A DNA stretch of 64,000 nt from Candidatus Thiodiazotropha sp. (ex Monitilora ramsayi) (GTDB lineage: Bacteria > Pseudomonadota > Gammaproteobacteria > Chromatiales > Chromatiaceae), in the NCBI GenBank assembly GCA_025655595.1, contig JAHXIO010000010.1:1-64000 (forward strand), in the 5' to 3' direction. The position numbers and the translations under genes were made by a program. The notes beneath the pieces are model-generated. The model saw nothing but the letters and a program-made list of their open reading frames with translations. It searched no databases and had not been told where the DNA came from. Shown in pieces: positions 5,858 to 54,328 of this stretch. The stretch's first letter is position 1. The number at the start of each line of letters is the position of its first letter.

Positions 5858-5912
5858 CATGCTTTCAAAGCGGATTTCTGCTTTTGAAACGCTGAATATC
5901 TCGGTTTCCGTT

Positions 5913-7739: not shown

Positions 7740-7777
7740 CTAATAAAACTGCCTTTGGCTTGAGTATTATAATTTTC

Positions 7778-7805
7778 ACTGGAGAGCGCAGATGCGCTCT
7801 CCAGT
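7778..7805 (-). terminator. Intercistronic hairpin between TAXI receptor and permease
   Basis: ACTGGAGAGCGCA and its complement TGCGCTCTCCAGT form a 13-bp stem with a tiny loop. No T-run follows in the minus direction, so it is more likely a mRNA-stabilising or partial attenuation hairpin than a full terminator. It would allow more receptor than permease to be made. Confidence 0.6.
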
Positions 7806-7818
7806 CCGCCCAGTGGAC

Positions 7819-9170: not shown

Positions 9171-9201
9171 AACCCCGGAGGGATCGACTCCCTCCGGGGT
9201 T
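9171..9201 (-). terminator. Hairpin downstream of acnB
   Basis: AACCCCGGAGGGA and TCCCTCCGGGGTT pair perfectly around five bases, 11 bp beyond the acnB stop. No long T-run follows, but strength and position fit transcription termination or 3'-end protection. Confidence 0.7.
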
Positions 9202-9212
9202 AATGATGCCAA

Positions 9213-11816: not shown

Positions 11817-11950
11817 GTTCGACCTCTCTTCGTAGGTAACAGGTGGTTGTGAGCACTCATCGCCACAACCAATGGTTCAGTTAGCCGGTTTAACCGACCT
11901 TGTGACAGAAAAGATATCAGAGCTTTTTCTATACGTATAATGGATTGTTC

Positions 11951-11978
11951 GCATGTATAATATGCAAATATTGCATGT
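11951..11978. promoter_or_regulatory. Candidate LysR operator between acnB and the LysR gene
   Basis: Two overlapping AT-rich palindromes, GCATGTATAATATGC (11951-11965) and ATGCAAATATTGCAT (11962-11976), lie 18-43 bp before the LysR start. A further TATACGTATA is at 11930-11939. Overlapping dyads in a divergent promoter fit LysR binding and autoregulation; this is inference. Confidence 0.45.
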
Positions 11979-11993
11979 TAAAAGTTACTGATC

Positions 11994-12875
11994 ATGGACC
12001 TGCAACTCTTACGCTCCCTGCTTGCCGTGGCCGATACCGGATCGATCACGGAAGCGGCTGACCGAATCGGCGTGACGCAACCGGCGCTTTCACGCCGCCT
12101 TCAACAGTTAGAGGACCATTTCGGCGCTGAATTGCTCTCTCGTGGAAGAAAAGGGGCTGAATTGACAGAGATTGGCCGCCTGGTCGAAAGCGAAGCCCGG
12201 ATACTGGTCAACCGATACGACCATCTGCGGGAACAGGTGCGGGCGCATCAGGGGCTTGAGGGAGGGACCGTCCGCATTGGCGGCGGCGCCACCGCAGTCT
12301 CCTTTGTACTACCCAAGGCGATCGCCAGCTTCCAGCAGGACTACCCCGCAGTGAGATTTCAGCTCAAGGAGGCCGGTAGTATCGAGGTGGCGGAAGATGT
12401 CATCAGTGGGCGATTGGAGCTGGGGCTTGTCACCCTGCCGGTGCAAGATCGTGAACTCACACTCTGGCCACTGCTGACCGATCGCATTGTCCTGGTCGGT
12501 CCAAGCAACCATCCACTTGCCAAAGCAGGCAGCATCCGGGCGGAATCTCTGGAAGGACTCGCCTTTGTCGGTTTCGAGGCCGACACGGCGGTACGGCAGA
12601 TCATCGACGCAACCCTGCGTGATGCCGGCGTGGAGATGAACGTGGTGATGGAGTTGCGTTCAATCCCCGCCATTCTGCGTATGGTGGCCACAACCGGGAA
12701 CCTGGCTTTTGTCAGTCAACTCGGGGTGGACAGTCTGGAAGAGGTTCGCGAGATTGATGTCACTGGCCTTAACATCGAGAGGAAACTGGCGGTCATTGCC
12801 AAACGGGGTTCAACCCTCTCCCCTGCGACACACGCCTTTGCGACACTGCTTAGGGAAAATTATATACCTGAGTAA
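11994..12875 (+). CDS. LysR-family transcriptional regulator
   Basis: The 293-residue protein has the N-terminal winged helix of the family (LRSLLAVADTGSITEAADRI, then VTQPALSRRLQQLEDHFGAE) and a substrate-binding domain from about residue 90. It diverges from acnB, and LysR proteins often control the divergent gene, so acnB or another carbon gene is a plausible target; the inducer is unknown. Confidence 0.88.
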   Translation: MDLQLLRSLLAVADTGSITEAADRIGVTQPALSRRLQQLEDHFGAELLSRGRKGAELTEIGRLVESEARILVNRYDHLREQVRAHQGLEGGTVRIGGGATAVSFVLPKAIASFQQDYPAVRFQLKEAGSIEVAEDVISGRLELGLVTLPVQDRELTLWPLLTDRIVLVGPSNHPLAKAGSIRAESLEGLAFVGFEADTAVRQIIDATLRDAGVEMNVVMELRSIPAILRMVATTGNLAFVSQLGVDSLEEVREIDVTGLNIERKLAVIAKRGSTLSPATHAFATLLRENYIPE

Positions 12876-13076
12876 AATCCACGCTTAATGTCCAAATAGG
12901 ATGCCTGCCTAAAAAAGCAGAGCCGTTGAGTCTATGAGATTGTTAAATTTAGGGATTAACGCTTGACTCAGGCCGGTATTGGGATTATTTTCCCATCTTA
13001 AGAATTCAGGGGCAGCACCGCACTTCCCGCGTCCCAAGCATCTCCTCAAAAACGACAGATCTTAAGGATAGCAGAC

Positions 13077-16000: not shown

Positions 16001-16679
16001 TTCCTGTCATACCGGTGATGCCATGAGCAACATGGCCGGCGATGCCAATGTGGTGGTCAACCCGGCCGACACCGATGGGAACGAGGATAACATCCGACTC
16101 TTCCAGGCCTACAAGAGCAATGATTCGAAGGCCACTCCGATTGTGCCGACCAACAAACGCTTTGCTGAGAATGTCATCGAGGCGGACAATCCGGTCATCA
16201 CCGATCCCGGTGACGTCAGAATCGGCAATCCCATGCTCTACCGGGTCAGTAAAGGCCATGGCGGCATTTTCTGTGAGACCTGCCACGGCGCGACCCACGG
16301 TATCTGGCCGAACAAGAACGATCTGGCCAACGACAATGTGGCCGCCAATCAATTACAGGGTCACAAAGGCACAATCATCGAGTGCGATACCTGTCATACG
16401 GGTAGTCTCGGTAATACACTGGATGGTCCGCACGGCATGCACCCGGTGGGCGATACCTCATTCGCTGACGGAGGGCATGCCGGCCTGTCTGAAAGCAATC
16501 CAAACGCTTGTCGCGCATGCCATGGCAATAATGGCCAGGGCACAGTTCTCTCCCGCATGGCGATCGACCGGACACTGCAATGCGATAACTCCACCAGCTT
16601 CTGCCCCGGCGGGAACACCGCCCAGTTCCCGAAAGGCCATATGGTGGGTTGTACCGAATGCCATCCCAATGAGCTCTAG
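13077..16679 (+). CDS. PKD-domain lipoprotein with nine c-type haem motifs
   Basis: The 1200-residue product starts with a lipoprotein signal (LILVFALTACGGSSGGS). Five PKD domains follow at about residues 42-480, each with the core YxWDFGDG or WTFGDG and ending in TVTLTV. A central region holds NDLGMHCGDFDTRVSSILPP, a segment I associate with multihaem proteins. The last 450 residues carry nine CxxCH motifs: CGACH, CQQCH, CYQCH, CQDCH, CGSCH, CETCH, CDTCH, CRACH and CTECH. The protein is probably lipid-anchored to the outer membrane, with the PKD stalk holding the haem domain away from the membrane. A role in extracellular or periplasmic electron transfer is inference. AAGGA precedes the ATG. 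Confidence 0.88.
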   Translation: MRNPHRTEPVKGIHRLYPLFSLILVFALTACGGSSGGSTNSAPVANANGDYPGTVGVAVSFDSSGTSDSDGSIVGYLWTFGDGGTSTDANPTHTYANAGSYTVTLTVSDNDGATNSDTATATITDPANLAPTANANGPYSAQSGEAINFSSTGSSDSDGSITTYAWDFGDGATSSDANPAHIYSAAGTFTVSLTVTDNDGASHTDTTSATITNPPGGNQTPTANANGPYTGTTGIAVAFSSAGSSDPDGTIATYAWNFGDGNTSNAANPSHTYAAAGTYNVSLTVTDDGGAVDSDITTATISDPVNAAPTANANGDYAGTSGVAVSFSSAGSVDSDGSITSYAWDFGDGGISSQANPNHSYAAAGSYTVTLTVTDNDGATDSDTATATISAAANVAPTANANGSYTGTTGNPVSFFSTGSSDSDGAITGYLWDFGDGANSSDANPVHTYATAGNYTVTLTVTDDDGATDNDTASAAITDTPAVPNVSINSTSQNGALSMTPVTEQPLDGQAGYRIFAVNDLGMHCGDFDTRVSSILPPFNVLHATVIQRGATPIVLTPTDNVEVYYSSSSNPNDPILTGVNSAGTGPVYSSLAGGNVFKTNFWDIARDAYDPFYPAGILPLFYPAGPVEDILDLGLPMPNVERLYLGDGMLTADQQSMPGRHGPYVDNAEEKFEAYVADQPFFTNPAFKFGYVSEAVNWYEAPGIPLAAFDDAGRENPWPLFRIQAKQTGTTLASVDTVVPISGEANCGACHGSPLDGGNGSATATLVDNSIVVADVLDDPEHGNVPLEVSKEYAADLNLLRLHDHKHGTTLEANKPVVCQQCHYTPALDLAQLGPLDSTSGGNGREQTSVKSMSNVMHSHHGTVRDTNGDLLFPEMPAAIKDSFGFVSNDAERRAVLEETCYQCHPGRRTDCLRGAMANGGMLCQDCHGNMEQVGDDFTRNVSPTNVGAFELGGDFYTNPAQPRVPWANEPGCGSCHTGDAMSNMAGDANVVVNPADTDGNEDNIRLFQAYKSNDSKATPIVPTNKRFAENVIEADNPVITDPGDVRIGNPMLYRVSKGHGGIFCETCHGATHGIWPNKNDLANDNVAANQLQGHKGTIIECDTCHTGSLGNTLDGPHGMHPVGDTSFADGGHAGLSESNPNACRACHGNNGQGTVLSRMAIDRTLQCDNSTSFCPGGNTAQFPKGHMVGCTECHPNEL

Positions 16680-40559: not shown

Positions 40560-43043
40560 TCAGAAGTCCCAGCGGTAGCCGGCGATGAAAAAGTAGTCGG
40601 TGGTCTCGATGCTCTGCCCGGCTGTCTCCTCATCGTACCAGTTGATACCGCCATCGAACTCAAGGGTAAAACTCTTGCGCAAACGGTACTCCATTCGCAG
40701 ATAGGGGCTCAGCGTCAATCGAGTGTTGTCGGAATCGGTACTCTTACGATAGGAGACATCGAATCTGGGATTGACCCGGAAGAGATTGGTCACGGGATAT
40801 CGACTGCTCACCCCCAGCCTCCAGGTGTTGGATGTGCTGGCATCGGAGTATCTCAGGCTGAAGATACCGATATCCCCCTTTTTCAACAGATCATTTTTGA
40901 TCACCTGGAAATTGTAGAAATACTGGGTGCCCGTCTTTTCTACCGGGGAGATAAAAATCGGATCGCCCGGCAGCCCTACACCGGGGGTGTCACCAGTACT
41001 CGTGACGGTAACATCGCCACTGATCTGTAACGTTTCTGATAGCGGTCGGCTGGCACCGATCAGAAAAGTCGAGGTATCAGCCGTGATCGTCTCCGCCAGG
41101 TCGTAGATCTCATCTTCACTTAACAGGCCCTTCAGTTCATCAATCGTCTCGAGCGGCGAAGCGGCTCTGATCGCATTGCTGCTCAGGAGCAAGGGGCTTT
41201 TCCGGTAGTCGATGGTCGAGTAGAGACGGGTCTTATCCTCCAGGGTCCAGTTGCCCTGGATAGAAAAGATATTGAGCGCACCGTAGTGGATATCGTAATC
41301 GACAATACCGAACAGGGATTTAGTGGGATCGAAGTAGCGAAGCTCGCCGCCGATAGCACGACGATCAATAATGTCGTCCACCCGCTGATCGATCAGGAAC
41401 AGGCTGAGATCCCAGTTCTCAAAAATATTCGAGATATCGCCGCTGAAGCCGGCAAAGGTCTTGTGATCATTGAGAAAGACATCTCTGGAACTCTCGACAG
41501 GCAGTCCGGCGGAAGCCTTTAAGCGAACGTCCTCCGTCAGATCGTATCCAAGGGCCAGACCGTCAAAGCGGTTGAGGATACCACTGGAGCGCAGGCGCTG
41601 ACGCCCGAGACGCATGCTCGACCGGGTATCCCGGTGCTGCAGATCGACATAGGCCTCAGTCAGTGTCTCATCGTCGCCCGGCCCATCATCCAGCAGATCG
41701 TAGACATAGCTGCCGGTCAGTTTCATCTGCAGGTCGAGGTCTTCACCCCGACGGCGGGTGTTGATGTCGATGAAATTCTCAATCTCGGAGCGGGAGACAC
41801 TGTCCTCATCATCGATGAAATCACTGTCGATCTCGTCCCGTCGGTAGTTCTGTGAAAAGCTGCCGTAGGTCTCCCATTCGACCGGCAGCTCATCTTCTTC
41901 TTTGCGGAGGGGGTCTTTCAGCGGCTTGGGAGCGGTTATCAGACCCAAGAGGCGTTGTTCCACACGCTCCGCGTCTTCACCTTCCGGATATTTTTCCAGG
42001 AAGGCGCGGTATTCGGCTTTTGCATGGGCGACCTGACCGTTTCGTTCGCGTGCAAGGCCCATGAGTTCCATGGCCTCCTTGGTATAGTAATTATTCGGCT
42101 CCTCCAGCATCGCCTCAAGCATACGGACCGCCTTGCCGTACTCCCCTGCCGTCATGGTGCGTCGGATCGTCTCCATCATTTGGGTCAGTCGCTCATCGAC
42201 GGGCAATATCTCCTGAACGGGTGCGGGCGGCGGGGGCTCCTGCTCTTCCTGTCCGGCTGCAAACATGGCTCGACGCCGCTCCTGGATGTCGGCGCGGTCG
42301 ATCCAGGCATCGGGGTAGAAGCTCTTCATCTCCTTCAGTTTCGCCTTGGCTTCGTCCTGGGTGCGAAAAAACCCGAGCCGGAGGCGATGCCATTCGCGTC
42401 CGTCCACCTGTGCCTTGGTGGTGTAGAGCGTCTGGTCGCCTTCAACCTGGACCGGCGCGATCTTCGCCATATCGATGGGCTTGGTCTCCGATTTCAGATT
42501 GACCACATAGATCACCAGGGGGAGCGCCTTGAAGCTCATGGGTGATTTGGTTTCGGGAACATCGATATCCACAGGCGGCTGTTTGGGTACCGGTATTTCA
42601 GGTACCCCTGCCTTGCTCTTCAAGACAAAGTCCATCGAATAGAAATCACGGCTCTGGCGAATCCTGAAATCCTCCACTGGGGTGACAAAAGAGACCAGTA
42701 GAGATGAAGTACCCAAGACCTGACCCTGGTAGACTACCTTGTCCAGCGGGATCTCGGCTGAGGGATTCCAGGTCAATTGATCCGTAGAGGCCAGATCCTC
42801 CAAAGCCACTTCCCTGTTCTGAATGATCTGGATTTGCACTCCGACTTCGGTCTTCGTCTCGTTCATCACGTGCGAGACATATCGCACCGGCACATTGAAG
42901 ATGACCGAGATGACATTCTCGTCACCCTCGGATTTGATCTCAATCCGGTCGAGTACCTTGGATGCCGCGCCTGCCTGAAATGAGACCAGCAGCATCAGTA
43001 ACATCAGCCAGGAAAAAATCTTTGATAAGTTGATGTTCCGCAC
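40560..43043 (-). CDS. SPOR/TPR outer-membrane beta-barrel protein of the cytochrome locus
   Basis: The 827-residue protein has a signal peptide (residues 1-27, cleavage near AGAAS), a beta-rich N-terminal domain, a SPOR-like segment near residues 195-270 (WHRLRLGFFRTQDEAKAKLK), tetratricopeptide-like helices near 300-375, and a long C-terminal region of alternating strands ending in FIAGYRWDF. The final aromatic residue and Tyr-x-Trp-x-Phe pattern are those of outer-membrane barrels. It is the last gene of the minus-strand cytochrome operon. By analogy with porin-cytochrome conduits it could house or anchor the haem wire; it is not a recognisable MtrB homologue. Confidence 0.7.
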   Translation of the reverse strand: MRNINLSKIFSWLMLLMLLVSFQAGAASKVLDRIEIKSEGDENVISVIFNVPVRYVSHVMNETKTEVGVQIQIIQNREVALEDLASTDQLTWNPSAEIPLDKVVYQGQVLGTSSLLVSFVTPVEDFRIRQSRDFYSMDFVLKSKAGVPEIPVPKQPPVDIDVPETKSPMSFKALPLVIYVVNLKSETKPIDMAKIAPVQVEGDQTLYTTKAQVDGREWHRLRLGFFRTQDEAKAKLKEMKSFYPDAWIDRADIQERRRAMFAAGQEEQEPPPPAPVQEILPVDERLTQMMETIRRTMTAGEYGKAVRMLEAMLEEPNNYYTKEAMELMGLARERNGQVAHAKAEYRAFLEKYPEGEDAERVEQRLLGLITAPKPLKDPLRKEEDELPVEWETYGSFSQNYRRDEIDSDFIDDEDSVSRSEIENFIDINTRRRGEDLDLQMKLTGSYVYDLLDDGPGDDETLTEAYVDLQHRDTRSSMRLGRQRLRSSGILNRFDGLALGYDLTEDVRLKASAGLPVESSRDVFLNDHKTFAGFSGDISNIFENWDLSLFLIDQRVDDIIDRRAIGGELRYFDPTKSLFGIVDYDIHYGALNIFSIQGNWTLEDKTRLYSTIDYRKSPLLLSSNAIRAASPLETIDELKGLLSEDEIYDLAETITADTSTFLIGASRPLSETLQISGDVTVTSTGDTPGVGLPGDPIFISPVEKTGTQYFYNFQVIKNDLLKKGDIGIFSLRYSDASTSNTWRLGVSSRYPVTNLFRVNPRFDVSYRKSTDSDNTRLTLSPYLRMEYRLRKSFTLEFDGGINWYDEETAGQSIETTDYFFIAGYRWDF

Positions 43044-43230
43044 TCGTTAATTACCTGAACATTTAATTCGAAAATCTGATCTCACGCGATTAATCATCGT
43101 ATCCGGTTGCTGACAACACTCCACTACCTGGAATGAAGCGATCCCCCTTTCCATGGCAGACAACAATAAATAATTTCGGGAATTCACCCGGCAATCCACC
43201 TAAGTAGATTACCGGGTGAAATAAGACCTA
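43044..43230. other. Gap between barrel and giant cytochrome genes
   Basis: About 187 bp with no gene. ATTACCGGGTGAA near 43209 and TTCACCCGGCAAT near 43183 form an inverted repeat just past the cytochrome stop, a possible terminator or attenuator that would lower barrel expression. Confidence 0.4.
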
Positions 43231-46200
43231 TCACCATCCACGATCACTGACCCGATGACATCCACTGCCTGCGCAGTTTCTGTCATTGGAAAGTCCATTG
43301 TGATCATCTTCACCATTATCGTAGTCGTTCGCATGGCAAGCCGCACAATCGGGCGCATACGCCGGGAACGGCCACGGAATCGTCTCATTGTTGCTGGTAT
43401 GGCAATCCTGACAATCCAGATTCGCTCGATGGTCGCCCGGATAGTTGCCACCCACATGCCGGTATTCCGACGCCGGCAGCCAGCCATTGGTGGTATGGCA
43501 GCTGTCACACTGTTGAGTCGTAACAAAGTGGCCTCCCGGCATTCCCGTGGCAGTGGTGCCGTTGTGGCAACTGTTACAGGTACCGATGACGTCACCGTGA
43601 TCCACCCTTATCACCGGAATCCACGAGGTATTGCGGTGGCAATTCTCACAGATATTGGTGCTCTGGATATGGCCGGGGTTTTTCCCTGTCGCCGTGGTGC
43701 CGTTATGGCAACTGGAGCAGTTGTTGCTGATGGTCGAGTGGTCGAAGTTCGCCGGCACCCAGCCATTGGTGGTATGGCAGAGATCACAAGTGTTATCACT
43801 CGGCACATGATCCGGTGTCTTACCCGTCGCTATGGTGCCGTTGTGACAACTGAAGCAGGTCCCGATCACATCGGCATGATCGACTCTCAATACCGGCACC
43901 CAGGCCGTATTGCGGTGGCAATCCTCACACTGATTATTGGTCTGGATATGGGCCGGATGTTTTCCGGTTGCCGTCGTACCGTTGTGACAGGTCGAACAGT
44001 TGGTCGTGACACTGGCATGATCGAAATTCGCCGGTACCCAGCCATTGGTGGTATGGCAGAGATCACAGGTGTTGTCGCTCGCAATATGCGCAGCGTGTTT
44101 GCCCGTCGCTATGGTCCCGTTGTGACAGCTGAAGCAGGTGCCGATCACATCCTGATGATCCACCCTGAGTACAGGTATCCACGTCGTATTACGGTGGCAG
44201 TTCTCACAGACATTTGTCGTCTGAATATGCGACGCATGTTTACCCGTGGCCGTAGTGCCGTTGTGGCAGGTGGAACAATTGTTGGTAATTGTCGCGTGAT
44301 CGAAGTTCGCCGGCACCCAACCATTTGAGGTATGGCAGGTCTCGCAGTCATTGCCACTCTGGATGTGGGCTGCATGTTTACCGGTGGCTGTCGTACCGTT
44401 GTGACAACTGAAGCAAGTACCAATCACATTGGCATGATCCACCCGGATCACGGGTATCCATGAGGTATTACTGTGGCAGTCCTCGCAGACATTGGTCGTC
44501 TGTATATGGGTGCCGTTCTTACCCGTTGCGGTGGAACCGTTATGACAGGTAATACAGTTACCGGTCAGGCTGGCATGGTCGAAATTCGCCGGCACCCAAC
44601 CGTTAGTGGTATGGCAGGTCTCGCAGTCATTACCGCTCTGTACATGTAGCGCATGCTTACCGGTGGCAACAGTACCGTTATGGCAACTGAAACAGGTGCC
44701 GACCACCTCGGCATGATCGACACGGGTCGCCGGTATCCATGAACTATTGCGATGACAGCTCTCACAGGTGTTCGTCGTCTGGATGTGGGTCGGGCCCTTA
44801 CCTGTCGCCGTAGATCCATTGTGACAGCCGGAGCAGTTGCTGGTGATGCTGGCATGGTTGAAGTCGGCAGGTATCCAGGCATTGGTCGTATGACAAGCCA
44901 GACAGTCTTCTGTCGTCGGAACATGGGTTGCGTGCTTGCCAGGCGCTGTCGTCCCGTCGTGACAACTGCTGCAGGTACCGATGACATTGGCATGATCCAC
45001 CCTGAGCACAGGTATCCAGTCGGTATTACGGTGGCAGTCCTCGCAAACATTGGTCGTCTGAATGTGAGCGGCATGTTTGCCGGTGGCCGAAGTGCCGTTA
45101 TGGCAGCTGATACAATTGCCCGTGATAGTGGCGTGGTCGAAGTTTGCCGGTACCCAGCCGTTGGTGGTATGGCAGGACTCACAGTCATTACCGCTCTGAA
45201 TATGTGCAGCATGCTTGCCAATGGCGACACTGCCGTTGTGACAGCTGAAACAGGTGCCGATCACTTCGTTATGATCCACACGAATCGTCGGTATCCAGGA
45301 AGTGTTGCGGTGACAGCTCTCACAGATATTGGTGGTCTGGATATGGGCAGGATGCTTACCGGTCGCGGTGGAACCATTGTGACAACCGGAACAGTTGTCC
45401 ACCACGTTGGTGTGATCGAAATCAGCCGGAATCCACGCATTCGTCGTGTGACACACAAGGCAATCTTCTGTCGTTGCAACATGGTCGGGATCCTTACCCG
45501 GCGCAGTGGTGCCATCATGACAGCTGCTGCAGGTACCGATCACCTGGGCATGATCCACCCTGATAACCGGTATCCATGAGGTATTGCGATGACAGTCCTC
45601 ACACACGTTGGTGGTCTGGATATGGGCCGGGTTTTTACCCGTGGCCGTCGATCCGTTATGACAGCTTACGCAGTCACCTGTGATCGTTGCATGATCGAAT
45701 GATGCCGGTACCCAGGCATTCGTGGTATGACAGTCGGAGCAGACATTTCCACTGTTAATATGGTCCGGCGTCTTGCCGGTGGCGACCACGCCATTGTGGC
45801 AACTGGAACAGGGACCCTGTACCTGCGTATGGTCTACCCGGGTTGCGGGTACCCAAGAGGTATTTCGGTGACAGCTCTCACAGATGTTCGAAGTAAGAAT
45901 ATGGTTACTGTGCTTGCCAGTGGCTGAAGAACCGTTGTGACAGGTTGCACAATCGCTGGTCACCAAAGAGTGGTCGAAGTTGGCCGGCACCCAGCCGTTG
46001 GTGGTATGGCAATCGGTACAATCGTTGGTACTGGCGATGTGATCCGGCCCTTTGCCTGTCGCGATATTGCCGTTGTGGCAACTGAAACAACTGCCCTGCA
46101 CATTGGCATGATCCACCTGTGTTGCGGGACTCCAGGCGGTGATGCGGTGGCAGCTTTCACAGACCTGGGTCGATTGGATATGAGCCCCATGTTTACCCCT

Positions 46201-46884
46201 CGCCGTGGTGCCGTTATGGCAGCTGGAGCAGTTGCCGGTCACACCCGCATGATCGTAAGTGCCAGAAGCCCAGGAGATCGTATTATGGCAGCTCTCACAG
46301 CCCTGACCGTTAGTGGCAATGTGAGAGGGTGATGTACCGGTTGCGATCGTACCGTTATGGCAGCTGGCACAGGTACCCTGTACCGCCGAATGGTCAACAC
46401 GAATCACCGTGCTCCAACTAAAAGTTGAATGACAAAACTCACAGGTATTGGCCGAAAGAATATGACTGGGGTCTTTACCTGGCGCCGTGGCACCATTGTG
46501 ACATTTGGTGCAATCGCCAGAAACATTGCCGTGATCAAAGCGGGCATGCCGCCAGTCCGTGGTGGTATGGCAGTTGTCACACGTATCATCGGTCTGGATA
46601 TGATCGGACGACTTGCCATCCGCCCGTACATTGTTATGACAGCCTTCACAGCGTTCCGGGGTACCCACGAAGAGTCCACTGATATGGCAGCTTTCGCAAT
46701 CCACGTTGCGATGACCACCTGTCAGCGGAAACCCTGTTGTGAAATGGTCAAAATTCCCACTCGTCGCTGCCGGTAGACTCTGACTCGTCAAACCCAATGT
46801 CAGTAATGCCAATAGCAGCAGGATCGCTCTGGCGATACCCGCGCTTCGAAAGTCAAAATCCATATTTGCATTCATAAAAATCAT
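43231..46884 (-). CDS. Giant multihaem cytochrome c with about 50 haem-binding motifs
   Basis: From the ATG at 46884 the product is 1217 residues with a signal peptide (AILLLLALLTLGLTSQSLPA). I count 49 CxxCH motifs and one CX4CH (CAGSGCH) at the very end. The motifs alternate in a four-haem super-repeat of about 94 residues: ExCHRNTSWIPxxRVDH, CFSCHNGTxATGKHAAHIQS, CHTTNGWVPANFDH, CHNGTTATGKHxxHIQTT. The regular VDH, FDH and HI histidines are good candidates for distal haem ligands. It should be exported and form a long haem wire. The start was chosen 35 bp behind the preceding gene. Confidence 0.9.
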   Translation of the reverse strand: MIFMNANMDFDFRSAGIARAILLLLALLTLGLTSQSLPAATSGNFDHFTTGFPLTGGHRNVDCESCHISGLFVGTPERCEGCHNNVRADGKSSDHIQTDDTCDNCHTTTDWRHARFDHGNVSGDCTKCHNGATAPGKDPSHILSANTCEFCHSTFSWSTVIRVDHSAVQGTCASCHNGTIATGTSPSHIATNGQGCESCHNTISWASGTYDHAGVTGNCSSCHNGTTARGKHGAHIQSTQVCESCHRITAWSPATQVDHANVQGSCFSCHNGNIATGKGPDHIASTNDCTDCHTTNGWVPANFDHSLVTSDCATCHNGSSATGKHSNHILTSNICESCHRNTSWVPATRVDHTQVQGPCSSCHNGVVATGKTPDHINSGNVCSDCHTTNAWVPASFDHATITGDCVSCHNGSTATGKNPAHIQTTNVCEDCHRNTSWIPVIRVDHAQVIGTCSSCHDGTTAPGKDPDHVATTEDCLVCHTTNAWIPADFDHTNVVDNCSGCHNGSTATGKHPAHIQTTNICESCHRNTSWIPTIRVDHNEVIGTCFSCHNGSVAIGKHAAHIQSGNDCESCHTTNGWVPANFDHATITGNCISCHNGTSATGKHAAHIQTTNVCEDCHRNTDWIPVLRVDHANVIGTCSSCHDGTTAPGKHATHVPTTEDCLACHTTNAWIPADFNHASITSNCSGCHNGSTATGKGPTHIQTTNTCESCHRNSSWIPATRVDHAEVVGTCFSCHNGTVATGKHALHVQSGNDCETCHTTNGWVPANFDHASLTGNCITCHNGSTATGKNGTHIQTTNVCEDCHSNTSWIPVIRVDHANVIGTCFSCHNGTTATGKHAAHIQSGNDCETCHTSNGWVPANFDHATITNNCSTCHNGTTATGKHASHIQTTNVCENCHRNTTWIPVLRVDHQDVIGTCFSCHNGTIATGKHAAHIASDNTCDLCHTTNGWVPANFDHASVTTNCSTCHNGTTATGKHPAHIQTNNQCEDCHRNTAWVPVLRVDHADVIGTCFSCHNGTIATGKTPDHVPSDNTCDLCHTTNGWVPANFDHSTISNNCSSCHNGTTATGKNPGHIQSTNICENCHRNTSWIPVIRVDHGDVIGTCNSCHNGTTATGMPGGHFVTTQQCDSCHTTNGWLPASEYRHVGGNYPGDHRANLDCQDCHTSNNETIPWPFPAYAPDCAACHANDYDNGEDDHNGLSNDRNCAGSGCHRVSDRGW

Positions 46885-46919
46885 AGTCTTATCCCAGCCC
46901 GACGGATCGGGGTGCGGTA

Positions 46920-48494
46920 TTACTGAAATTTGGGCTCTTTGAAAGTTTCCGTGCTGTGGCATCGATCGCAATGACGACCGAATCCGCCGACGTGAATATC
47001 ATCGCCGCGGTGACATCCAAAGCACTGTTTCGAAATACTGTTGTGCTCTTCGAGCGGAAGCCGATGACAGTCGTCACAGACCGCCTCCCGGTGTTTCCCC
47101 TCAAGAGGATATTCAGTTTGCTCATCATGATCGAATGTCCACAACAACCAATTGTTCGGGTTGTGGCATTCACCACACTTCTTACCAAACCGGCCATCGT
47201 GGTTATCGTCCGCCTTGTGGCAGGAGAGACACTCGATATCGGCCTGCTGAAACTCCGCATTCAGATGGCAGGACTCGCAGGCGGTGACGCTGTGAATACC
47301 GATTAGCGGAAACTTCGTCAGATCGTGCTCGAAGAAAACCTTTTCGGTCCAGCCTTCCTCATTGTGGCAGTAAGCGCAATTCTCCCCCTGCTCTCCCTTA
47401 TGCACATCCACAGCGCGATGGCAGTCGAAGCAGGTCACATCGCTCAACGCATCCATTGCTGCGGTACGATGGCATGCGTTACAGACCAGATCCTTATGCT
47501 GGCCATTCAAGGGGAACTTGGTGTCCTTGCCATGATCGAATTCGACCTTTTTCCAGCTCTCTACGCTATGGCAATCCTGGCACTTCTCTCCATTGCGCCC
47601 CCTATGTTCGTCATCTTTCTCATGACATGCATAGCAGGCTTTAGAGGGCTTTTTCTCAAAGGGACCCTTGATATGGCAGGTTTCGCACTTGACGGACTCA
47701 TGTCTCCCCTCGAGAGGGAATTCGGTATCCGCATTGTGGTCGAAGGCCAGCTTTTTCCACTCATAGCTACTGTGGCACTTTTCACATTCGGTACCGTTAC
47801 GGCCGTTGTGTACATCGTTGATCAGATGACAGCTGTAACAGTCCTTTGGGGTGTTTTTGTAGGTACCGTCCGCATGACAGAGCCTGCAATCGATCTCCTT
47901 GTGACGCCCGATACGTTTAAACTCAGTATCCTTATCATGGTCGAAGGCCTGCTCGCGCCAGTTCTTTTCGCTATGACACTTTTCGCACTCTTCGCCGAGC
48001 TTACCTTTATGCGCGTCATCCTTTTCGTGACATGAGAAACAGACAGAAGGGGCATCACTGTATTTCTTCAGCTCCTTTGTGTGGCACAAATTGCAGGAGA
48101 CCCCTATGTGACCTTCCTTGAGCTCAAAATCAGTGAGCTTGTGATCGAACGATTCGGTATCCAGATTGATGATATCCATCTCCCGGCCTTTATGGTCGGT
48201 ATGGCAATGCTTGCAGTCATTCGCCAGGGACTCATCCAGCCGGCCATGGTATCCCTCACCCAGTTTGATATCTTTTGCCACATTCTCGTGATCGTGACAT
48301 GAGAGACAGCGACCGGCCTGCTCCGCTTTCTTGAGGGTCTCGTGACAACTTTCGCACTTCTCCTCGAACTCCGCGTGCCCTTCGATTACAGGTCCCGGCA
48401 TCAACAGAAGATCCAGCTTACCTGCCAGTGCGGAGGCCGAAGGGAGCATGAGCAACACAGTGAACAGTAATAGGGGACGAATAGATAAATGCAT
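46920..48494 (-). CDS. Multihaem cytochrome c with 21 CxxCH motifs
   Basis: The 524-residue product starts with a signal peptide (MHLSIRPLLLFTVLLMLPSA, cleavage near ALA). I count 21 CxxCH motifs. From about residue 120 a three-haem unit of about 53 residues repeats: CxxCHEKDDxHxGRxGExC, xxCHSxxxWKxxxFDHxxxT, FPLxGxHxxxxCxxCH. The periplasm is the likely location, passing electrons between the membrane cytochrome b and the giant cytochrome. The ATG at 48494 was preferred to an upstream TTG. It lies 27 bp behind the cytochrome b gene. Confidence 0.9.
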   Translation of the reverse strand: MHLSIRPLLLFTVLLMLPSASALAGKLDLLLMPGPVIEGHAEFEEKCESCHETLKKAEQAGRCLSCHDHENVAKDIKLGEGYHGRLDESLANDCKHCHTDHKGREMDIINLDTESFDHKLTDFELKEGHIGVSCNLCHTKELKKYSDAPSVCFSCHEKDDAHKGKLGEECEKCHSEKNWREQAFDHDKDTEFKRIGRHKEIDCRLCHADGTYKNTPKDCYSCHLINDVHNGRNGTECEKCHSSYEWKKLAFDHNADTEFPLEGRHESVKCETCHIKGPFEKKPSKACYACHEKDDEHRGRNGEKCQDCHSVESWKKVEFDHGKDTKFPLNGQHKDLVCNACHRTAAMDALSDVTCFDCHRAVDVHKGEQGENCAYCHNEEGWTEKVFFEHDLTKFPLIGIHSVTACESCHLNAEFQQADIECLSCHKADDNHDGRFGKKCGECHNPNNWLLWTFDHDEQTEYPLEGKHREAVCDDCHRLPLEEHNSISKQCFGCHRGDDIHVGGFGRHCDRCHSTETFKEPKFQ

Positions 48495-48521
48495 CTCTAA
48501 CAACAGTCGCAACAAGTGGAA

Positions 48522-49433
48522 TCAGTAAGCATGTACGGCATAGACATGCACGAATCCAGTCACGATCATCATGATAAAGAGAGGCATATGCATCAGATGC
48601 CAGATGGCAAACATCCGCTCGTAGAAGTGCAGCTCCAGAATCTGTCGCAGAACTTTTCGGTGTGCAATCAACATATCTCTCAAGCGGATCTGCTTACGAC
48701 GGACCTTCCCCTTGTCCCAACCCTTCAAGTGGGCTGCGGCGAGGAGTTTTCTGTTCAATGAGCGGATCACCGAGCGATAGAGCCTGGCCGCCAGGATACG
48801 CATGGAAAACCAGTGTATTGCACTGGCGATCATACCGCTGGGAGCAGACAGCACCCGTTTTTCATAATCCTGAATCAGCTTTTTGGCCTTCGGATTCAAA
48901 TTGAACAGAGGGCCGATTTTTCGATTCAGCTCCAGGGAGTCGGCCTTCAGTGAGGCGAAGGTGGCCTTCCTACCATAGAGGCCGTAGTGAATCCGCGTAT
49001 AAAAATAGCGTCCGAATATACCGCTGATGGCAACCGCCAGCATGCTGAACAGGGCGATACGCCCGTTGAGGGACCCGAGGTGGAAGCTTGAGTGCATCAT
49101 GACCAGCACCGGCCCCAGCACTCCGAAAATCATATGCAGCCGGAACCAGAACTTAACCGTCTGCCAGCGGGACATGAAATGGAGCCGCTTGCGCATGGGG
49201 TATAGGACCAGCAACAGCATCAGACTTCCCCCGACGATACCAAACCAGTATCCCCAGCCGTCTTCGGCGATCCAGACCGCCTGTTCACGGTTCAGCCAGC
49301 CCAAATAGAGCAAGAATAGGGAAAAAATCGAAAATCCAAGCGTGCTAAGATAGCCGGAAACTCGCTTCAACAGCCCTGTCGAGGCACTTATCGAGCCACT
49401 ATTTACACGGGTCGCAACCGCTGCAGTTTCCAT
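48522..49433 (-). CDS. Membrane b-type cytochrome candidate
   Basis: The 303-residue protein has five probable membrane helices. Histidines in RLHMIFGVLGPVLVMMHSSF (third helix) and in WHLMHMPLFIMMIVTGFVHV (last helix) are spaced as haem b ligands, and a basic cytoplasmic loop of about 100 residues lies between helices 4 and 5. The layout resembles cytochrome b561 or ferric-reductase-like proteins. As first gene of the multihaem operon, it probably exchanges electrons between quinones or the Fe-S flavoprotein and the periplasmic haems. Haem binding is inferred. Confidence 0.65.
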   Translation of the reverse strand: METAAVATRVNSGSISASTGLLKRVSGYLSTLGFSIFSLFLLYLGWLNREQAVWIAEDGWGYWFGIVGGSLMLLLVLYPMRKRLHFMSRWQTVKFWFRLHMIFGVLGPVLVMMHSSFHLGSLNGRIALFSMLAVAISGIFGRYFYTRIHYGLYGRKATFASLKADSLELNRKIGPLFNLNPKAKKLIQDYEKRVLSAPSGMIASAIHWFSMRILAARLYRSVIRSLNRKLLAAAHLKGWDKGKVRRKQIRLRDMLIAHRKVLRQILELHFYERMFAIWHLMHMPLFIMMIVTGFVHVYAVHAY

Positions 49434-49715
49434 CTCATCACCACTTTATTAGTATAAAATTTAGTCACTTATGTCGTTTTTTGTTAATCAGGAGCTTCAA
49501 TGGGAGATTCCCCTGTTCTCGACCCACATCTTATGTTGGGAGTATTTTCCCAGCCATGAAGGTCATCACAAAAACGAAAATGATTGTCGATTATCTTGTC
49601 GTCCGCATAGCTGAATCCTAAACAAGCCATGGCAAATTCTGGTATTTAATTCACAATAAAGTTTCTGGCGTTAATTGCCGTAAGAAACCCTAATTAGTAA
49701 GCGCTTTATATTTCG
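49434..49715. promoter_or_regulatory. Divergent promoter region of the cytochrome locus
   Basis: This 282-bp AT-rich region separates the minus-strand cytochrome operon from the plus-strand flavoprotein operon, so both promoters must lie here. I could not identify a specific operator. Confidence 0.5.
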
Positions 49716-51038
49716 ATGCAGTTATCAGCCGACCTCTATCTCATCTATCTGCTCCCCATCCTGTTGATCTGGGCGATTTATGTCGTCCAGAAAAAACTGA
49801 AGAGCAGGAAAAATCTCGCTGTCATGAACGAGGAGTTCGAGGCCGGTCTGACGGAGCCTGCCTCCCTCCACCCGCTCATTGATCTGAAGAAGTGCATGGG
49901 CTGCGGTACCTGTGTAAAGGCCTGCCCGGAGCAGCATAACCACCCGGTATTGGGTCTGATCGACGGAAAGGCCCAGCTGATTGCGCCCACCAACTGTATC
50001 GGTCACGGCGCCTGCAAAACCGCCTGCCCCTTCGATGCCATCACGCTGGTTTTTGGGACAGAGAAGCGTGGTGTGGACATTCCAGTGCTCAAACCCAATT
50101 TCGAGACCTCCATGCCTGGCATCTATATTGCGGGCGAATTGGGTGGAATGGGCCTGATTCGAAATGCCATCGAACAGGGCTACAAAGCACTTGACTACGT
50201 CAGCGAGGACCTCAAATCTAATACGTCCGAGGCACCACTGGATGTAGTTATCGTCGGTGCCGGTCCTTCGGGATTCAGTGCCTCTCTTCGCTCGATGGAG
50301 AAAAAACTGCGATACAAAACCGTGGAACAGGACTCTCTCGGTGGAACGGTATTCCAGTTCCCGCGCGGTAAACTCGTAATGACGGCTCCGGTAACACTCC
50401 CCCTGGTGGGCGAAATGAAGTTCACCGAAACCACCAAAGAGACCCTGCTTCAATTCTGGCAGGATGTAGAGAAAAAGACCGGCATTGAGATCAACTACCA
50501 TGAGCGTGTCGAGGCGATTACAAAAAATGACAAGGGTGGATATGACGTCAAGACGAATAAAACCAGCTACCATACCCGCGCTGTTCTACTCACTATCGGG
50601 CGACGCGGCACACCAAGGAAACTGGGTGCGGATGGCGAAGAGATGAGTAAGGTCACCTATCGCCTGATCGATCCAGAACAGTATCGAAATCAACATGTCC
50701 TGGTGGTCGGTGGCGGTGATAGCGCCCTGGAGGCCGCCACCAGTATTGCGGATGAACCAGGCACCACAGTCACCCTCTCCTATCGTAGCGGCGCATTCGG
50801 TAGGGCAAAACGAAAAAACCGGGAACGGGTGGATGCAGCGGTCGACGCTGGAAAAATCAACTTAATGTTTAATTCCAACGTCAAGTCCTTTACTGAAGAG
50901 ACTGTAACCATCGAGCAAGAGGGAAAGGCGATTGAGCTTCCCAACAATGCCGCCATTATCTGTGCAGGCGGTATTCTGCCTACAGGCTTTCTCAAAGAGA
51001 CTGGCATCAGCGTGGAGACCAAACATGGCACTGCCTAA
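49716..51038 (+). CDS. Membrane-anchored ferredoxin-thioredoxin-reductase-like flavoprotein
   Basis: The 440-residue protein has an N-terminal membrane helix (YLIYLLPILLIWAIYVV), two 4Fe-4S motifs (CMGCGTCVKACPEQ and CIGHGACKTACP near residues 58-105), then an FAD domain with VVIVGAGPSGFSA and an NAD(P)-binding VVGGGDSALEAATS. The fold is that of thioredoxin reductase/YpdA proteins, but no CxxC redox pair is present, so disulfide reduction is unlikely. A membrane NAD(P)H-to-Fe-S electron path fits better, probably feeding or draining the cytochromes. Confidence 0.82.
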   Translation: MQLSADLYLIYLLPILLIWAIYVVQKKLKSRKNLAVMNEEFEAGLTEPASLHPLIDLKKCMGCGTCVKACPEQHNHPVLGLIDGKAQLIAPTNCIGHGACKTACPFDAITLVFGTEKRGVDIPVLKPNFETSMPGIYIAGELGGMGLIRNAIEQGYKALDYVSEDLKSNTSEAPLDVVIVGAGPSGFSASLRSMEKKLRYKTVEQDSLGGTVFQFPRGKLVMTAPVTLPLVGEMKFTETTKETLLQFWQDVEKKTGIEINYHERVEAITKNDKGGYDVKTNKTSYHTRAVLLTIGRRGTPRKLGADGEEMSKVTYRLIDPEQYRNQHVLVVGGGDSALEAATSIADEPGTTVTLSYRSGAFGRAKRKNRERVDAAVDAGKINLMFNSNVKSFTEETVTIEQEGKAIELPNNAAIICAGGILPTGFLKETGISVETKHGTA

Positions 51039-53079
51039 CTTTAACGCCTTGCGTATGCTGCCTTCGCCGGTGCATTCCCTACTGCTTGCCATTATGCTCT
51101 GCTTTGAATTCCTCTCAGTCAGTGTATTCGCCGCCACACATGAAGAGGCTGAAGCGGCAGTACGAATCAGAAACTTCTCCAAAGCGGCCGAAATATATAC
51201 GGAACTGGCCAAAGCGGGTGATAGGGATGCCCAGTTCGCACTGGGCAACGTCTATCGTTCGGGAAGAGGTGTCAAGAAAGATCATAAACAAGCCTTCACC
51301 TGGTTTTCCAAAGCCGCGGCACAGGGTCACGTAAAAGCGCAATACACAACCGGCACAATGTACGAAAACGGCTGGGGAGTAAAAGCAGACCTGCTGCAGG
51401 CTGAAGAGTGGTACCGCCGTGCAGCTGCCGAGGGACATAAACTTGCTGAGAAGAAGCTTGAGGTTCTTGCAACCTCCTCACCGATCGACAACCTCACCCG
51501 ATCACAAAGGATTGAACTGCTGAATCGTGCCGCCGCCGGCGGCAAGTCGGAGACAATCAAACGCCTGCTGGCTGCAGGAGCCTCCATCAACGGCACAGAC
51601 AAATTCGGACGTACAGCTCTGCATGAGGCCGCGATCAATCAACAGGCAGAAGCTATCGATGTACTCCTGCAGGCAAAGGCTCAACCCAATACCAAGGACA
51701 GCCTCGGCGATACCCCCCTGCATAGTGCTGCAGCACTCGGAAACACCCGGATCGCAGATGCACTCTTAACGGCGGGCGCCCAACTGGAAGCACCCAATTC
51801 CACTGGGAACACAGCCCTGTTAATCGCCACCGGACGGAACCATAAAAAGACCGTCGATTTACTGATTAAACTGGGGGCGAATGTCAACACGAAGAACGAA
51901 AAGAAACAGACACCGCTCGATTTAGCACTATTACGAAAATTCGACGGCATTGCCGCCAAACTCAAGGCAGCGGGAGGCAAGGCTACGGTCAGGAAATCCA
52001 GTGACAGGGAGTTCCCCGATATCGCAAAGATCGAACAGCTTGTGGCGACCAAAGGCAAGGAGGATAAAAACAACCCCTTTGCAGGCTGGAGCCCGCTGCA
52101 TATTGCTGCTTGGCGTGGCCAATTACCGCTGATTGAGGCGATTCTCAAAAAAGGCGCCGATCTTAACGGCTTGGATGCAGAGGGTTATACACCGCTGGCC
52201 CGCGCGGTCTGGCAAGGACATGACGAGATAGCCAAATACCTTATGCAACAGGGTGCTGATACCAATTTGACCGGTAAGAATAATCCCACCCCCCTGCTGC
52301 TCGCCACCCGCGATAACAATTTAAAGCTGACCACTGAGTTGCTGGAACGTAATGCGAGGATCAATATCACCAATGAAAATGGTGTCTCTGCATTACACAA
52401 TGCGGTCGAAAACAAAAACAGGGAGATGGCGGCCCACCTCTTGTTTCAGAGCGCTAATCCGAACGCGTCAACCAAGGCCGGAATCACACCCCTGATTCTG
52501 GCCATCAACAATAGTCAGCCCATGATTGTCAGAACACTGCTTAATCGCGGTGCCTCTATCAACAAGCCAGACGCTAAAGGACAATCTCCCCTCTACCATG
52601 CCATCGATGCCGGTAACCGGGAATCGCTTGATCTGCTACTTGAGAAGGGCGCAAAGATCGGGATGGAGACAAAAGCCGGCATTACTCCCATGATGCATGC
52701 AGCATCTTTAGGACATTCGGATGTCGTGGAGCTACTGCTCAAAGATGTGCAGCAAGTCGACAGACAGAGTGACAACGGCAATACGGCACTCCTGTTGGCC
52801 GCGCGTCAGGGCTCAGTCGACACAGTCGATCTCCTGTTGAATCGTAGCGCCGACGTCAATCACCGCAATCGAGCTGGTAACAGCGCACTGATGCTTGCCG
52901 CTCAACAGGGACACCTGGACGTGGTCAAGCGACTATTGGCGAGTAAAGCCGATGCCCGCCTGCTGAACCAACGGCGTGAAAATGCAGAACATTTGGCAAA
53001 GCAAGCCGGTCACCACAAGGTGGCGGAATACATCGCTGAAAACAAAGGTAGTGGACGGTTGCTGGATCTGATGCGATAG
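51025..53079 (+). CDS. Exported Sel1 and ankyrin repeat protein
   Basis: The 684-residue product starts in the end of the flavoprotein gene (14-bp overlap, GTGGAG upstream) with a signal peptide (LLLAIMLCFEFLSVSVFAAT). Two or three Sel1 repeats follow (AQFALGNVYRSGRGVKKDHK, YTTGTMYENGWGVKADLLQA), then about 14 ankyrin repeats (for example GRTALHEAAINQQAEAIDVL). It is a periplasmic scaffold or protein-binding module, perhaps organising the cytochrome complex. No enzyme domain. Confidence 0.85.
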   Translation: MALPNFNALRMLPSPVHSLLLAIMLCFEFLSVSVFAATHEEAEAAVRIRNFSKAAEIYTELAKAGDRDAQFALGNVYRSGRGVKKDHKQAFTWFSKAAAQGHVKAQYTTGTMYENGWGVKADLLQAEEWYRRAAAEGHKLAEKKLEVLATSSPIDNLTRSQRIELLNRAAAGGKSETIKRLLAAGASINGTDKFGRTALHEAAINQQAEAIDVLLQAKAQPNTKDSLGDTPLHSAAALGNTRIADALLTAGAQLEAPNSTGNTALLIATGRNHKKTVDLLIKLGANVNTKNEKKQTPLDLALLRKFDGIAAKLKAAGGKATVRKSSDREFPDIAKIEQLVATKGKEDKNNPFAGWSPLHIAAWRGQLPLIEAILKKGADLNGLDAEGYTPLARAVWQGHDEIAKYLMQQGADTNLTGKNNPTPLLLATRDNNLKLTTELLERNARINITNENGVSALHNAVENKNREMAAHLLFQSANPNASTKAGITPLILAINNSQPMIVRTLLNRGASINKPDAKGQSPLYHAIDAGNRESLDLLLEKGAKIGMETKAGITPMMHAASLGHSDVVELLLKDVQQVDRQSDNGNTALLLAARQGSVDTVDLLLNRSADVNHRNRAGNSALMLAAQQGHLDVVKRLLASKADARLLNQRRENAEHLAKQAGHHKVAEYIAENKGSGRLLDLMR

Positions 53080-53419
53080 CACATGAAGCGACTTTAAAAT
53101 AACCGGTTTTAAAAATCCTGGTCCACCACTTCACCGGCAGTCCCTTTATCCAGGGACATCAATTGAGATCGGGGCTGACTGTTTGTCTACCCCGATACGC
53201 AGGATCAGAGCCTGATAAAAACCCTGATATATGTATCGTTACTTTTAAAGGGCATCATCCAGAATCATAAGACTTTCTTAATTTTTCCCCGCTATTTTGA
53301 ATTCTGGGCCCCGGCACCAGTTAAACAACAACATTCTCTGTCTCATGACCGTCAACACGGTCACTGTTGCTTGGATCGAAAAAAAACTTCACACCAAGAA
53401 AGATTGGAGAAAAAAAACC
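53080..53419. other. Leader region of the rhodanese gene
   Basis: About 340 bp without a supported gene. It should hold a separate promoter for the rhodanese gene. No clear repeat or terminator. Confidence 0.35.
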
Positions 53420-54328
53420 ATGAATCAGCCACGTGGAAATTTTCATTCAGCCATCCTTTCGACACTTATCGCAACAATGAGCATCGGCGCTGTCGGCCAG
53501 ATTTATGCGGCTGAGGGCGACTCTGACGGAAACCGTTACTATCTGCAACGCTATTACTCGGCAGATATCAGCGCCGCCAAGGCTTATTTAGGCATGTTAG
53601 GCAAATATCAGAAAAAAGAGGATGAAGAGAAAGAGAGCGACGATGGAGAAGATGACGAAAAATTTGAGAAACTGACCATCATCGATGTCAGAGATGCCAC
53701 CGAATACCTTCTGGGACATCCCAAAAAAGCCATACACATGCCCTACCCCCGCATCTACCGGGCCTGCGTGGATGACTTACGCACAGAGGACGGCGCTTGT
53801 TCGAATGGAACCGTCTATCAGGTCAGACAAGATCCGGAAGATCTTTTTTTACAAATAGAGAACAAAATCCCCAATAAGCAGACCCCCATAGCCACACTTT
53901 GCCGGACCGGATTTCGCAGCGTACTGGCAGCCAACATACTCTCAAAGCCCACCACAATCTGCGACCTCAAAGGGTATACGGGTATCGATCATGAACAGTG
54001 TGTAATCGCATATACCGATCGTGGCTACGCCAACGTATCCAACATATGGCAAGGTTTTGTCGGTCAACCCATGGCGGGCATCGTCAGCAGCGGTGGTGGT
54101 CGCTACGTGGTCGGTAATGATCAATTATTGACTGATGTAACGTTGAATGACGGCAGTACAGCCAAAGGGTTTATCGCCTACGACCTGGATCTCAACAATG
54201 ACGAAGCCATCACAGCCGACGATAAGGATGGCTGGCGTTATCACCAGGGACTGCCATACGACACGAAAATGAGCCGGAAACGCATCAATCAGGTTGTCGA
54301 TGAGGCGGGTTACTATGATCTACCTTAG
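53420..54328 (+). CDS. Exported rhodanese-like protein of the cytochrome locus
   Basis: The 302-residue product has a signal peptide (AILSTLIATMSIGAVGQIYA). A highly acidic stretch near residues 70-85 is followed by a rhodanese domain: LTIIDVRDATEYLLGHPKKA and the active-site loop TLCRTGFRSVLAA with its cysteine. An insertion with two cysteines (ACVDDLRTEDGAC) sits between these motifs. It should act in the periplasm or outside. Being part of the cytochrome locus suggests a link between sulfane sulfur and the electron path. The start was chosen at the signal peptide. Confidence 0.75.
   Translation: MNQPRGNFHSAILSTLIATMSIGAVGQIYAAEGDSDGNRYYLQRYYSADISAAKAYLGMLGKYQKKEDEEKESDDGEDDEKFEKLTIIDVRDATEYLLGHPKKAIHMPYPRIYRACVDDLRTEDGACSNGTVYQVRQDPEDLFLQIENKIPNKQTPIATLCRTGFRSVLAANILSKPTTICDLKGYTGIDHEQCVIAYTDRGYANVSNIWQGFVGQPMAGIVSSGGGRYVVGNDQLLTDVTLNDGSTAKGFIAYDLDLNNDEAITADDKDGWRYHQGLPYDTKMSRKRINQVVDEAGYYDLP

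Follow-up and report, generated by a model that had tools for sequence, protein, structure and literature searches.

Background

The putative extracellular electron conduit PCC3, named in 2017 (He et al., PMC5566968), was described as a porin, an extracellular multihaem cytochrome (MHC; median 34 haems, up to 85), a periplasmic MHC (median 21 haems) and a membrane protein of ~300 aa with five transmembrane (TM) helices, which carries the motif WX3HX13H on TM3 and TM5 and SGXXG on TM4. The HX13H pairs were likened to those of ferric reductase and NADPH oxidase (NOX), and the published model of the conduit stops at quinone (PMC5566968). Here we analyse a divergent locus at positions 40560-54328 of a 64,000-nucleotide stretch of DNA (the window) from Candidatus Thiodiazotropha sp. 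(ex Monitilora ramsayi), contig JAHXIO010000010.1, in which an initial annotation had placed seven open reading frames (ORFs) that it could assign to no named system. All seven are present at the coordinates and on the strands that it gave, but four of them, encoding an outer-membrane barrel, two MHCs and an inner-membrane protein, correspond to PCC3 (PMC5566968), and for these the view that the system had no name was wrong. In addition, we report that a membrane-anchored Fe-S flavoprotein, encoded divergently from this core, is a near-obligate partner of PCC3, an association that is new here.

Results

Recurrence of the PCC3 core and its flavoprotein

The four-gene core was filed as PCC3 by matching its gene order and sequence motifs to published descriptions. 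The order porin, long MHC, periplasmic MHC, membrane protein is the same in PCC3 and in the window, and it is also that of Slit_0867-0870, where a 17-haem MHC is followed by one of 21 haems (PMC8788666, PMC12016527); a barrel gene adjoining the MHC genes, a 21-haem MHC and a low ratio of residues to haems are likewise common to PCC3 and the window. Tubeworm symbionts carry PCC3 too (PMC5566968), and the Lamellibrachia and Escarpia symbiont loci of our collection (L067-L070; L-numbers denote loci, that is, stretches of DNA, and G-numbers genomes, G000 being the window's own) are kin of the tubeworm symbionts named in that paper.

A set of six genes, consisting of this core, the flavoprotein gene and a gene for an exported Sel1-ankyrin repeat protein, recurs in many Proteobacteria and Nitrospinaceae. 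Co-occurrence in other genomes, on which the proposal of a seven-gene system leaned, was thus found for six of the seven genes; the seventh, a rhodanese gene, is adjacent in three genomes only. A first search with the membrane protein gave matches in 64 of the 195 genomes of the order, which in 29 genomes extended over most of the protein (one of them split) and in the others were short. We retrieved the surroundings of 20 such matches, 19 long and one short; the six genes stand together in 17 of the 19 loci with a long match (in L043 with the MHCs in pieces), and the remaining two, L042 and L046, are cut by contig ends. A scan of a species collection yielded 284 confirmed relatives, the best 80 of which are the named loci; with seven of L031-L050 judged not already to be among L051-L130, these make up a set of 87 loci. 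The labels of the best 80 of 284 comprise Gamma- and Alphaproteobacteria, Nitrospinaceae, Deltaproteobacteria, Acidobacteriota, Opitutaceae (mostly metagenome-assembled genomes) and strain LSUCC0057, and the nearest among them are Candidatus Thiodiazotropha symbionts of lucinid clams. Because 19 of the 87 loci are close Thiodiazotropha relatives, haem counts were repeated without this genus.

Sixty-one loci extend 5.5 kb or more upstream of the membrane-protein gene, and every one of them has the flavoprotein gene; over the whole set it is present in 85 of 87. It and the ankyrin gene are on the other strand from the membrane-protein gene in 59 of 73 loci and on the same one in 14; in L048 all six genes form a single run on one strand. 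Where the DNA extends 8.5 kb or more downstream of the membrane protein (49 loci), the barrel gene was found in 48, and in the sole miss, L109, it lies further on. We also searched 369 genomes drawn from the class, with a threshold for the flavoprotein (1e-60) set before the search and thresholds for the membrane protein (~4e-42) and the barrel (~3e-60) set after the gap in the lists had been seen. The membrane protein was found in 42 genomes and the flavoprotein in 45, with both in 41 (Fisher p ~1e-48); the barrel was found in 45, in 40 of them with the membrane protein (Fisher p 1.6e-45), values that overstate the association because the genomes are not independent. Forty-one of 47 membrane-protein loci have the flavoprotein on the same contig, in every case within 12 kb, and in this draw the flavoprotein almost never occurs away from PCC3. 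Of the three, only the membrane protein is lacking from G371 and G494; as for the barrel, it is missing from G287 and G518 and is matched alone in G352, G496 and G551.

Neither the flavoprotein nor the Sel1-ankyrin protein was found as a partner of PCC3 in the open-access main texts searched, a scope that takes in no figures, supplements or subscription papers. In the main text of PMC5566968 the terms FAD, ferredoxin, ankyrin, Sel1 and thioredoxin reductase are absent, and the sole mention of NADPH concerns something else. Open-access literature yielded no report on multihaem cytochromes in Thiodiazotropha; by title, only magnetic-field work was found for lucinids and electron transfer, and nothing on PCC3 for multihaem and ankyrin. 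A Methylobacter paper (PMC13322032) was considered as a prior report and rejected, as the locus it describes is of the MtrAB type.

The Fe-S flavoprotein

The flavoprotein gene (49716-51038, plus strand) was identified by Pfam, alignment and a search for structural relatives. Its product has Fer4 and Pyr_redox matches in Pfam and combines two [4Fe-4S]-type motifs with an FAD/NAD(P) domain that by sequence resembles that of thioredoxin reductase (TrxR); among solved structures, its nearest relatives are YpdA and the thioredoxin and ferredoxin-NADP reductases of TrxR type. An N-terminal TM helix was assigned by a simple hydropathy criterion in 64 of the 78 ORFs that are long enough. Disulfide reduction of the TrxR kind is unlikely, because a CXXC in the flavin part is lacking from all 85 flavoproteins. 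In the second Fe-S motif a His (H97) replaces the second Cys in all 84 rows with a residue there, so that a Cys3His [4Fe-4S] cluster may be bound here; across the 85 rows, H97 and the individual Fe-S ligands are kept in 78-84, and in the first motif six rows have Ser instead of C63. As a whole, the protein looks like a TrxR-type ferredoxin-NADP reductase equipped with two Fe-S motifs, and the fusion of these motifs to the flavin part is no more than suggestive of NAD(P)H oxidation with a ferredoxin or Fe-S partner.

The inner-membrane protein and a sister module

The inner-membrane protein (48522-49433, minus strand) has 303 aa and five TM helices according to both hydropathy and an AlphaFold2 model (pLDDT 87.1), with a helical domain between TM4 and TM5 in the model. 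The motif WX3HX13H occurs twice, on TM3 (W96/H100/H114) and TM5 (W278/H282/H296), and SGXXG lies on TM4 as S137-G138-x-x-G141. Each of these motif residues is kept in 86 or 87 of the 87 aligned rows, the exceptions being one row with M in place of W96 and one row gapped at the C-terminal residues; His 149, 279 and 301 are also invariant. On this pattern the protein is a candidate two-haem b-type cytochrome; a Pfam search gave no domain match for it. In another Thiodiazotropha genome (G058, locus L042/L066) the membrane-protein gene is split into two ORFs, and the MHC and barrel ORFs are whole.

Short relatives of the membrane protein (HMM scores 22-58 bits) belong to a sister module, which we viewed in 20 of the 46 short matches (L050, L170-L188). 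An MHC with 8 haems lies beside the short relative in all 20 loci and a reductase in 19 (two of them fragmentary; none in L186), in the order reductase, membrane protein, MHC on one strand. The reductase of L050 matches NAD_binding_1, Fer2 and NAD_binding_6 above the Pfam cut-offs and FAD_binding_6 just under; the other reductases of this module match that of L050 by phmmer only. Short inner-membrane proteins beside MHCs, mostly with 'another redox protein', were already mentioned in PMC5566968. That two branches of the membrane protein are accompanied by two different flavin/Fe-S reductases of NAD(P)H type points to the nicotinamide/ferredoxin pool as their partner.

The two multihaem cytochromes

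About 70 haem motifs had been claimed for two adjacent genes, and the counts bear this out. The long MHC (43231-46971, minus strand; its true start is probably near 46884, as judged by eye from the translations) contains 49 CXXCH and one CX4CH, i.e. 50 possible haems, and the neighbouring MHC (46920-48515, minus strand) contains 21 CXXCH. In 1000 shuffles each of the same residues the mean CXXCH counts were 0.67 and 0.32, respectively. Both proteins have Cytochrome_C7/c3 matches in Pfam. With a residue-to-haem ratio of 25.4 (49 CXXCH in an ORF of 1246 aa) the long MHC falls within the PCC3 range of 22-39; its haem motifs follow a 23-23-23-24 residue repeat, and those of the 21-haem MHC come in three-haem modules spaced ~17-18-33 residues. 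The haem motifs use up all Cys residues (100 in the long MHC and 42 in the other), and hence neither protein has a lipobox Cys. The N-terminus of the long MHC shows a hydrophobic stretch only; an N-terminal hydrophobic stretch together with the lack of a lipobox suggests a periplasmic location for the 21-haem MHC.

The haem number of the 21-haem MHC is largely fixed among relatives and that of the long MHC varies (counts are per ORF, with the frameshifted genes of L043/L067, L070 and L079 counted as pieces). Of 79 complete ORFs for the first MHC, 64 have 21 haems; with Thiodiazotropha left out the share is 45 of 60, and the haem number is a multiple of three in 56 of these 60 (one is a piece of a split gene). 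For the second, long MHC we counted 5-67 CXXCH per ORF (median 33, n=59 relatives); without Thiodiazotropha, and where the first MHC has at least 18 haems, the range is 5-62 (median 28, n=40, 38 of them odd). Of 17 Thiodiazotropha loci counted, 15 have 67 haems in the long MHC and the other two have 61, as compared with 49 in the window. As its haem number is fixed while that of the long MHC varies, we read the 21-haem MHC as the probable spanning part: a fixed wire would fit a fixed periplasm, and the second wire would not be bound by the width of that compartment. Such a pairing of a fixed 21-haem wire with one that varies freely (5-133 haems) amounts to a testable rule for recognizing the periplasm-spanning part.

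The upper end of this range comes from a groundwater gammaproteobacterium (L169, from the same genome as L109), where a 4071-aa ORF at 3022-15237 with 133 CXXCH and 10 CX4CH precedes the PCC3 barrel gene; this is a metagenome-assembled genome with repeat-rich DNA, and the ORF could hold assembly errors. Its CXXCH number exceeds the largest haem numbers given in PMC5566968 (85) and PMC9012536 (86).

The barrel protein

The barrel gene (40560-43043, minus strand; identified from its ORF, Pfam and an AlphaFold2 model) encodes a protein with an N-terminal hydrophobic signal, a beta domain at residues 31-142, a SPOR domain (Pfam 208-248, over the cut-off), TPR helices at 284-370 (a weak Pfam match) and 22 predicted outer-membrane strands at 390-826 (pLDDT 75.5, 15 sequences). 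Of 15 aligned relatives, 14 match SPOR (E<=0.01). General porins, ushers, AlgE and PelBC are among the Foldseek matches of the model; MtrB was not among the 50 rows shown of 1276.

Neighbouring genes and the intergenic region

The Sel1-ankyrin ORF opens at 50932, with a likely ATG at 51025, and ends at 53079 on the plus strand; judged by eye from the translations, that ATG overlaps the flavoprotein stop by 14 nt. Sel1 and ankyrin domains were both found by Pfam. Of the 61 loci that extend far enough upstream of the membrane protein (5.5 kb or more), 54 have the gene, a count obtained with one query sequence (phmmer, 40 bits) that could miss diverged members.

The rhodanese (53297-54328, plus strand, likely start ~53420; probably exported) has the Pfam domain expected from its name and lies outside the conserved unit. 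Apart from the window, only the two closest relatives (G037, G055) have it next to PCC3. Rhodanese matches occur in 11 of the 22 genomes of the genus, the window's included, and in the remaining eight of these the gene is located 128 kb off (G071) or on a different contig. On this distribution its inclusion in the system, by analogy with extHIJKL, was rejected; the rhodanese is a chance neighbour.

Between the divergent gene groups lies an intergenic region of 282 bp (49434-49715), in which a promoter search found one match against 0.9 expected, no signal above chance.

Other cytochromes of the genome

The genome of the window encodes a second giant MHC of 1879 aa with 70 CXXCH (L189, 6846-12485; G000:C4, ~139845-145484), which has a weak PKD match and, by eye, a lipobox-like N-terminus; rnfC/rnfD and more rnf-like ORFs lie next to it. 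Over its first 662 residues it matches the long MHC of the window at 43-48%. In other members of the genus its matches lie on the contigs that carry PCC3, except for pieces on G136:C171 and G114:C88, which may be cut ends of the same gene. In the window itself, 24 kb from PCC3, an ORF at 13077-16679 (plus strand) encodes a candidate surface cytochrome: its 1200 aa include PKD repeats and, near the C-terminus, nine CXXCH, and its start looks lipobox-like by eye.

Discussion

The initial annotation had proposed a trans-envelope conduit fed from NAD(P)H or quinone. A conduit is still the best reading, and its link to NAD(P)H has been strengthened; quinone does not appear to be the chief partner. 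We incline, at slightly better than even confidence, towards PCC3 as an NAD(P)H-linked and probably outward wire rather than a chiefly quinone-linked iron oxidase. Cytoplasmic NAD(P)H (or reduced ferredoxin) would reduce the FAD of the membrane-anchored flavoprotein, whose Fe-S clusters would pass electrons to the five-helix membrane protein. There a b haem on the cytoplasmic side would receive them and a second one would complete the crossing of the inner membrane, an arrangement like that of NADPH oxidases except that the flavin sits on a separate polypeptide. The periplasm would be spanned by the 21-haem cytochrome, acting as a fixed-length wire. At the outer membrane the SPOR/TPR-bearing 22-strand porin would let electrons through, either to the long cytochrome or together with it, and this cytochrome, free in length, would reach outwards. 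The Sel1-ankyrin protein may act as an assembly or docking scaffold. Net flow would most likely be outward, with surplus reductant dumped on an extracellular acceptor: transfer from NAD(P)H to an acceptor of higher potential is downhill, and delivering electrons inward to NAD(P)+ by way of two haems in the membrane would have to overcome the membrane potential and is therefore uphill. The outward direction is further favoured by S. lithotrophicus ES-1, whose two PCC3 clusters both show lower levels on Fe(II) than on thiosulfate (PMC8788666).

Several points weigh against this interpretation. The literature searched contains no demonstration of electron movement by any PCC3, and extracellular electron transfer by PCC3 is described as untested in PMC12442390. 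In the ES-1 proteome one long MHC (Slit_1448) reads 0 throughout (PMC12016527). With no lipobox on either MHC, the outer location of the long MHC is only putative. A Foldseek search with the membrane protein gave no significant relative (best E 0.56), and the ferric reductase family PF01794 has no match in the whole genome, so that kinship with NOX is putative at most; the fold comparison neither supports nor excludes a likeness of the membrane protein to NOX or ferric reductase. As to gene content, G384 has the membrane protein and the barrel with no flavoprotein match, G292 (a fragment) and G333 (longer, in a different frame) have a flavoprotein match without membrane protein or barrel, and the Sel1-ankyrin gene was not found in L106, L111, L114, L117, L118, L124 and L126 (7 of 61). 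Furthermore, iron oxidisers commonly carry PCC3, with the complete set in 26 Gallionellaceae genomes (PMC10734462), and one PCC3 membrane-protein gene of CL21 rose with iron-oxidising ability, as fits uptake (PMC12442390).

These last two observations speak for the published model (PMC5566968) of an electron-uptake conduit, in which Fe(II) or another donor would feed the long MHC, the 21-haem MHC, the membrane protein and finally, in the manner of cytochrome b, quinone, and the flavoprotein would be an accessory; the invariant His 149, 279 and 301 might serve a quinone site or a further haem. Uptake is the rival that we take most seriously, but we consider it unlikely: it leaves unexplained both the constancy of a flavoprotein of NAD(P)H type and the NAD(P)H-type reductase of the sister module, it is hard to square with the lower levels of the ES-1 clusters on Fe(II), and most of the 80 named loci have labels that are not known to be those of iron oxidisers. 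The very large number of haems, the low residue-to-haem ratio and the absence of a lipobox from the MHCs would also suit a periplasmic or surface capacitor, an idea voiced in PMC10734462, whose 70 haems would buffer swings between sulfidic and oxic conditions while the barrel served as a separate porin. Such a store has little probability in our estimate, as a separate porin would have no need to recur in 48 of 49 loci and the fixed 21-haem MHC argues for a spanning part. By far the least probable is that the barrel is part of an exporter of the AlgE or BcsC kind, with the cytochromes as unrelated neighbours. The combination of SPOR/TPR with a barrel does resemble exporters, and Foldseek lists AlgE, PelBC and ushers alongside porins; the joint presence of barrel and membrane protein in 40 of 369 genomes largely refutes the idea, and none of the recurring genes, the ones annotated at these loci, is for polysaccharides.

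If PCC3 is indeed an NAD(P)H-linked wire, it might be the first known porin-cytochrome conduit to be driven directly from the cytosol, through a split, Fe-S-containing unit resembling NADPH oxidase and with a porin-less sister module; we advance this tentatively and put its chances somewhat below even. In that case PCC3 would represent a widespread route of reductant disposal, animal symbionts included. With the co-conserved flavoprotein there is a definite candidate for where electrons enter or leave, so that direction and coupling become a matter for enzyme assays. The findings also suggest that the symbionts of lucinid clams and tubeworms may exchange electrons outside the cell.

Comparison with known systems

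The window shares with MtrCAB, MtoAB and PioAB the working principle of a periplasmic MHC and an outer-membrane barrel, with or without a surface MHC. It differs in having 21 and 49 haems instead of 10 and a barrel with SPOR/TPR and 22 predicted strands. The caution of the initial annotation that the barrel is not obviously MtrB/PioB was well placed: MtrB_PioB (PF11854) has no match anywhere in the genome, and an MtrAB-type conduit was rejected on this ground. The NCBIfam model TIGR03508 did match the 49-haem protein (207 against a cut-off of 192), and because the match is spread over 10 repeated stretches we read it as a repeat artefact; with 49 and 21 haems rather than 10, the identification of the long MHC as a decahaem MtrA/DmsE was rejected. 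With NADPH oxidase and ferric reductase (FRD, PF01794) the only shared trait seen is the two HX13H pairs on TM helices; the proposed mode of working, in which a flavin reductase serves them from the cytoplasmic side, would be alike too, and unlike in NADPH oxidase the flavin part in the window is on a separate, TrxR-type chain with Fe-S motifs.

Geobacter extHIJKL has, like the window, a rhodanese beside barrel and cytochrome genes; its ExtK is a pentahaem cytochrome, and a PCC3-type membrane protein goes unmentioned in the part of PMC6148476 consulted. The undecahaem (Uet) complex (PMC10734462), another class of porin-MHC conduit, differs in its MHCs with 11 and 3 haems and its NHL proteins. 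A Uet-like locus is also present in the window's genome, at a contig end (L190, G000:C8), with an 11-haem MHC, an NHL protein, a 672-aa protein without a Pfam match and two three-haem c7-type ORFs, one of them cut by the contig end.

PCC3 remains the closest described system. Up to 42 strands were predicted for some PCC3 porins (He et al., PMC5566968), as against 22 in the barrel model of the window, and whereas PCC3 as published has no flavoprotein or Sel1-ankyrin part in the main text, the window has both.

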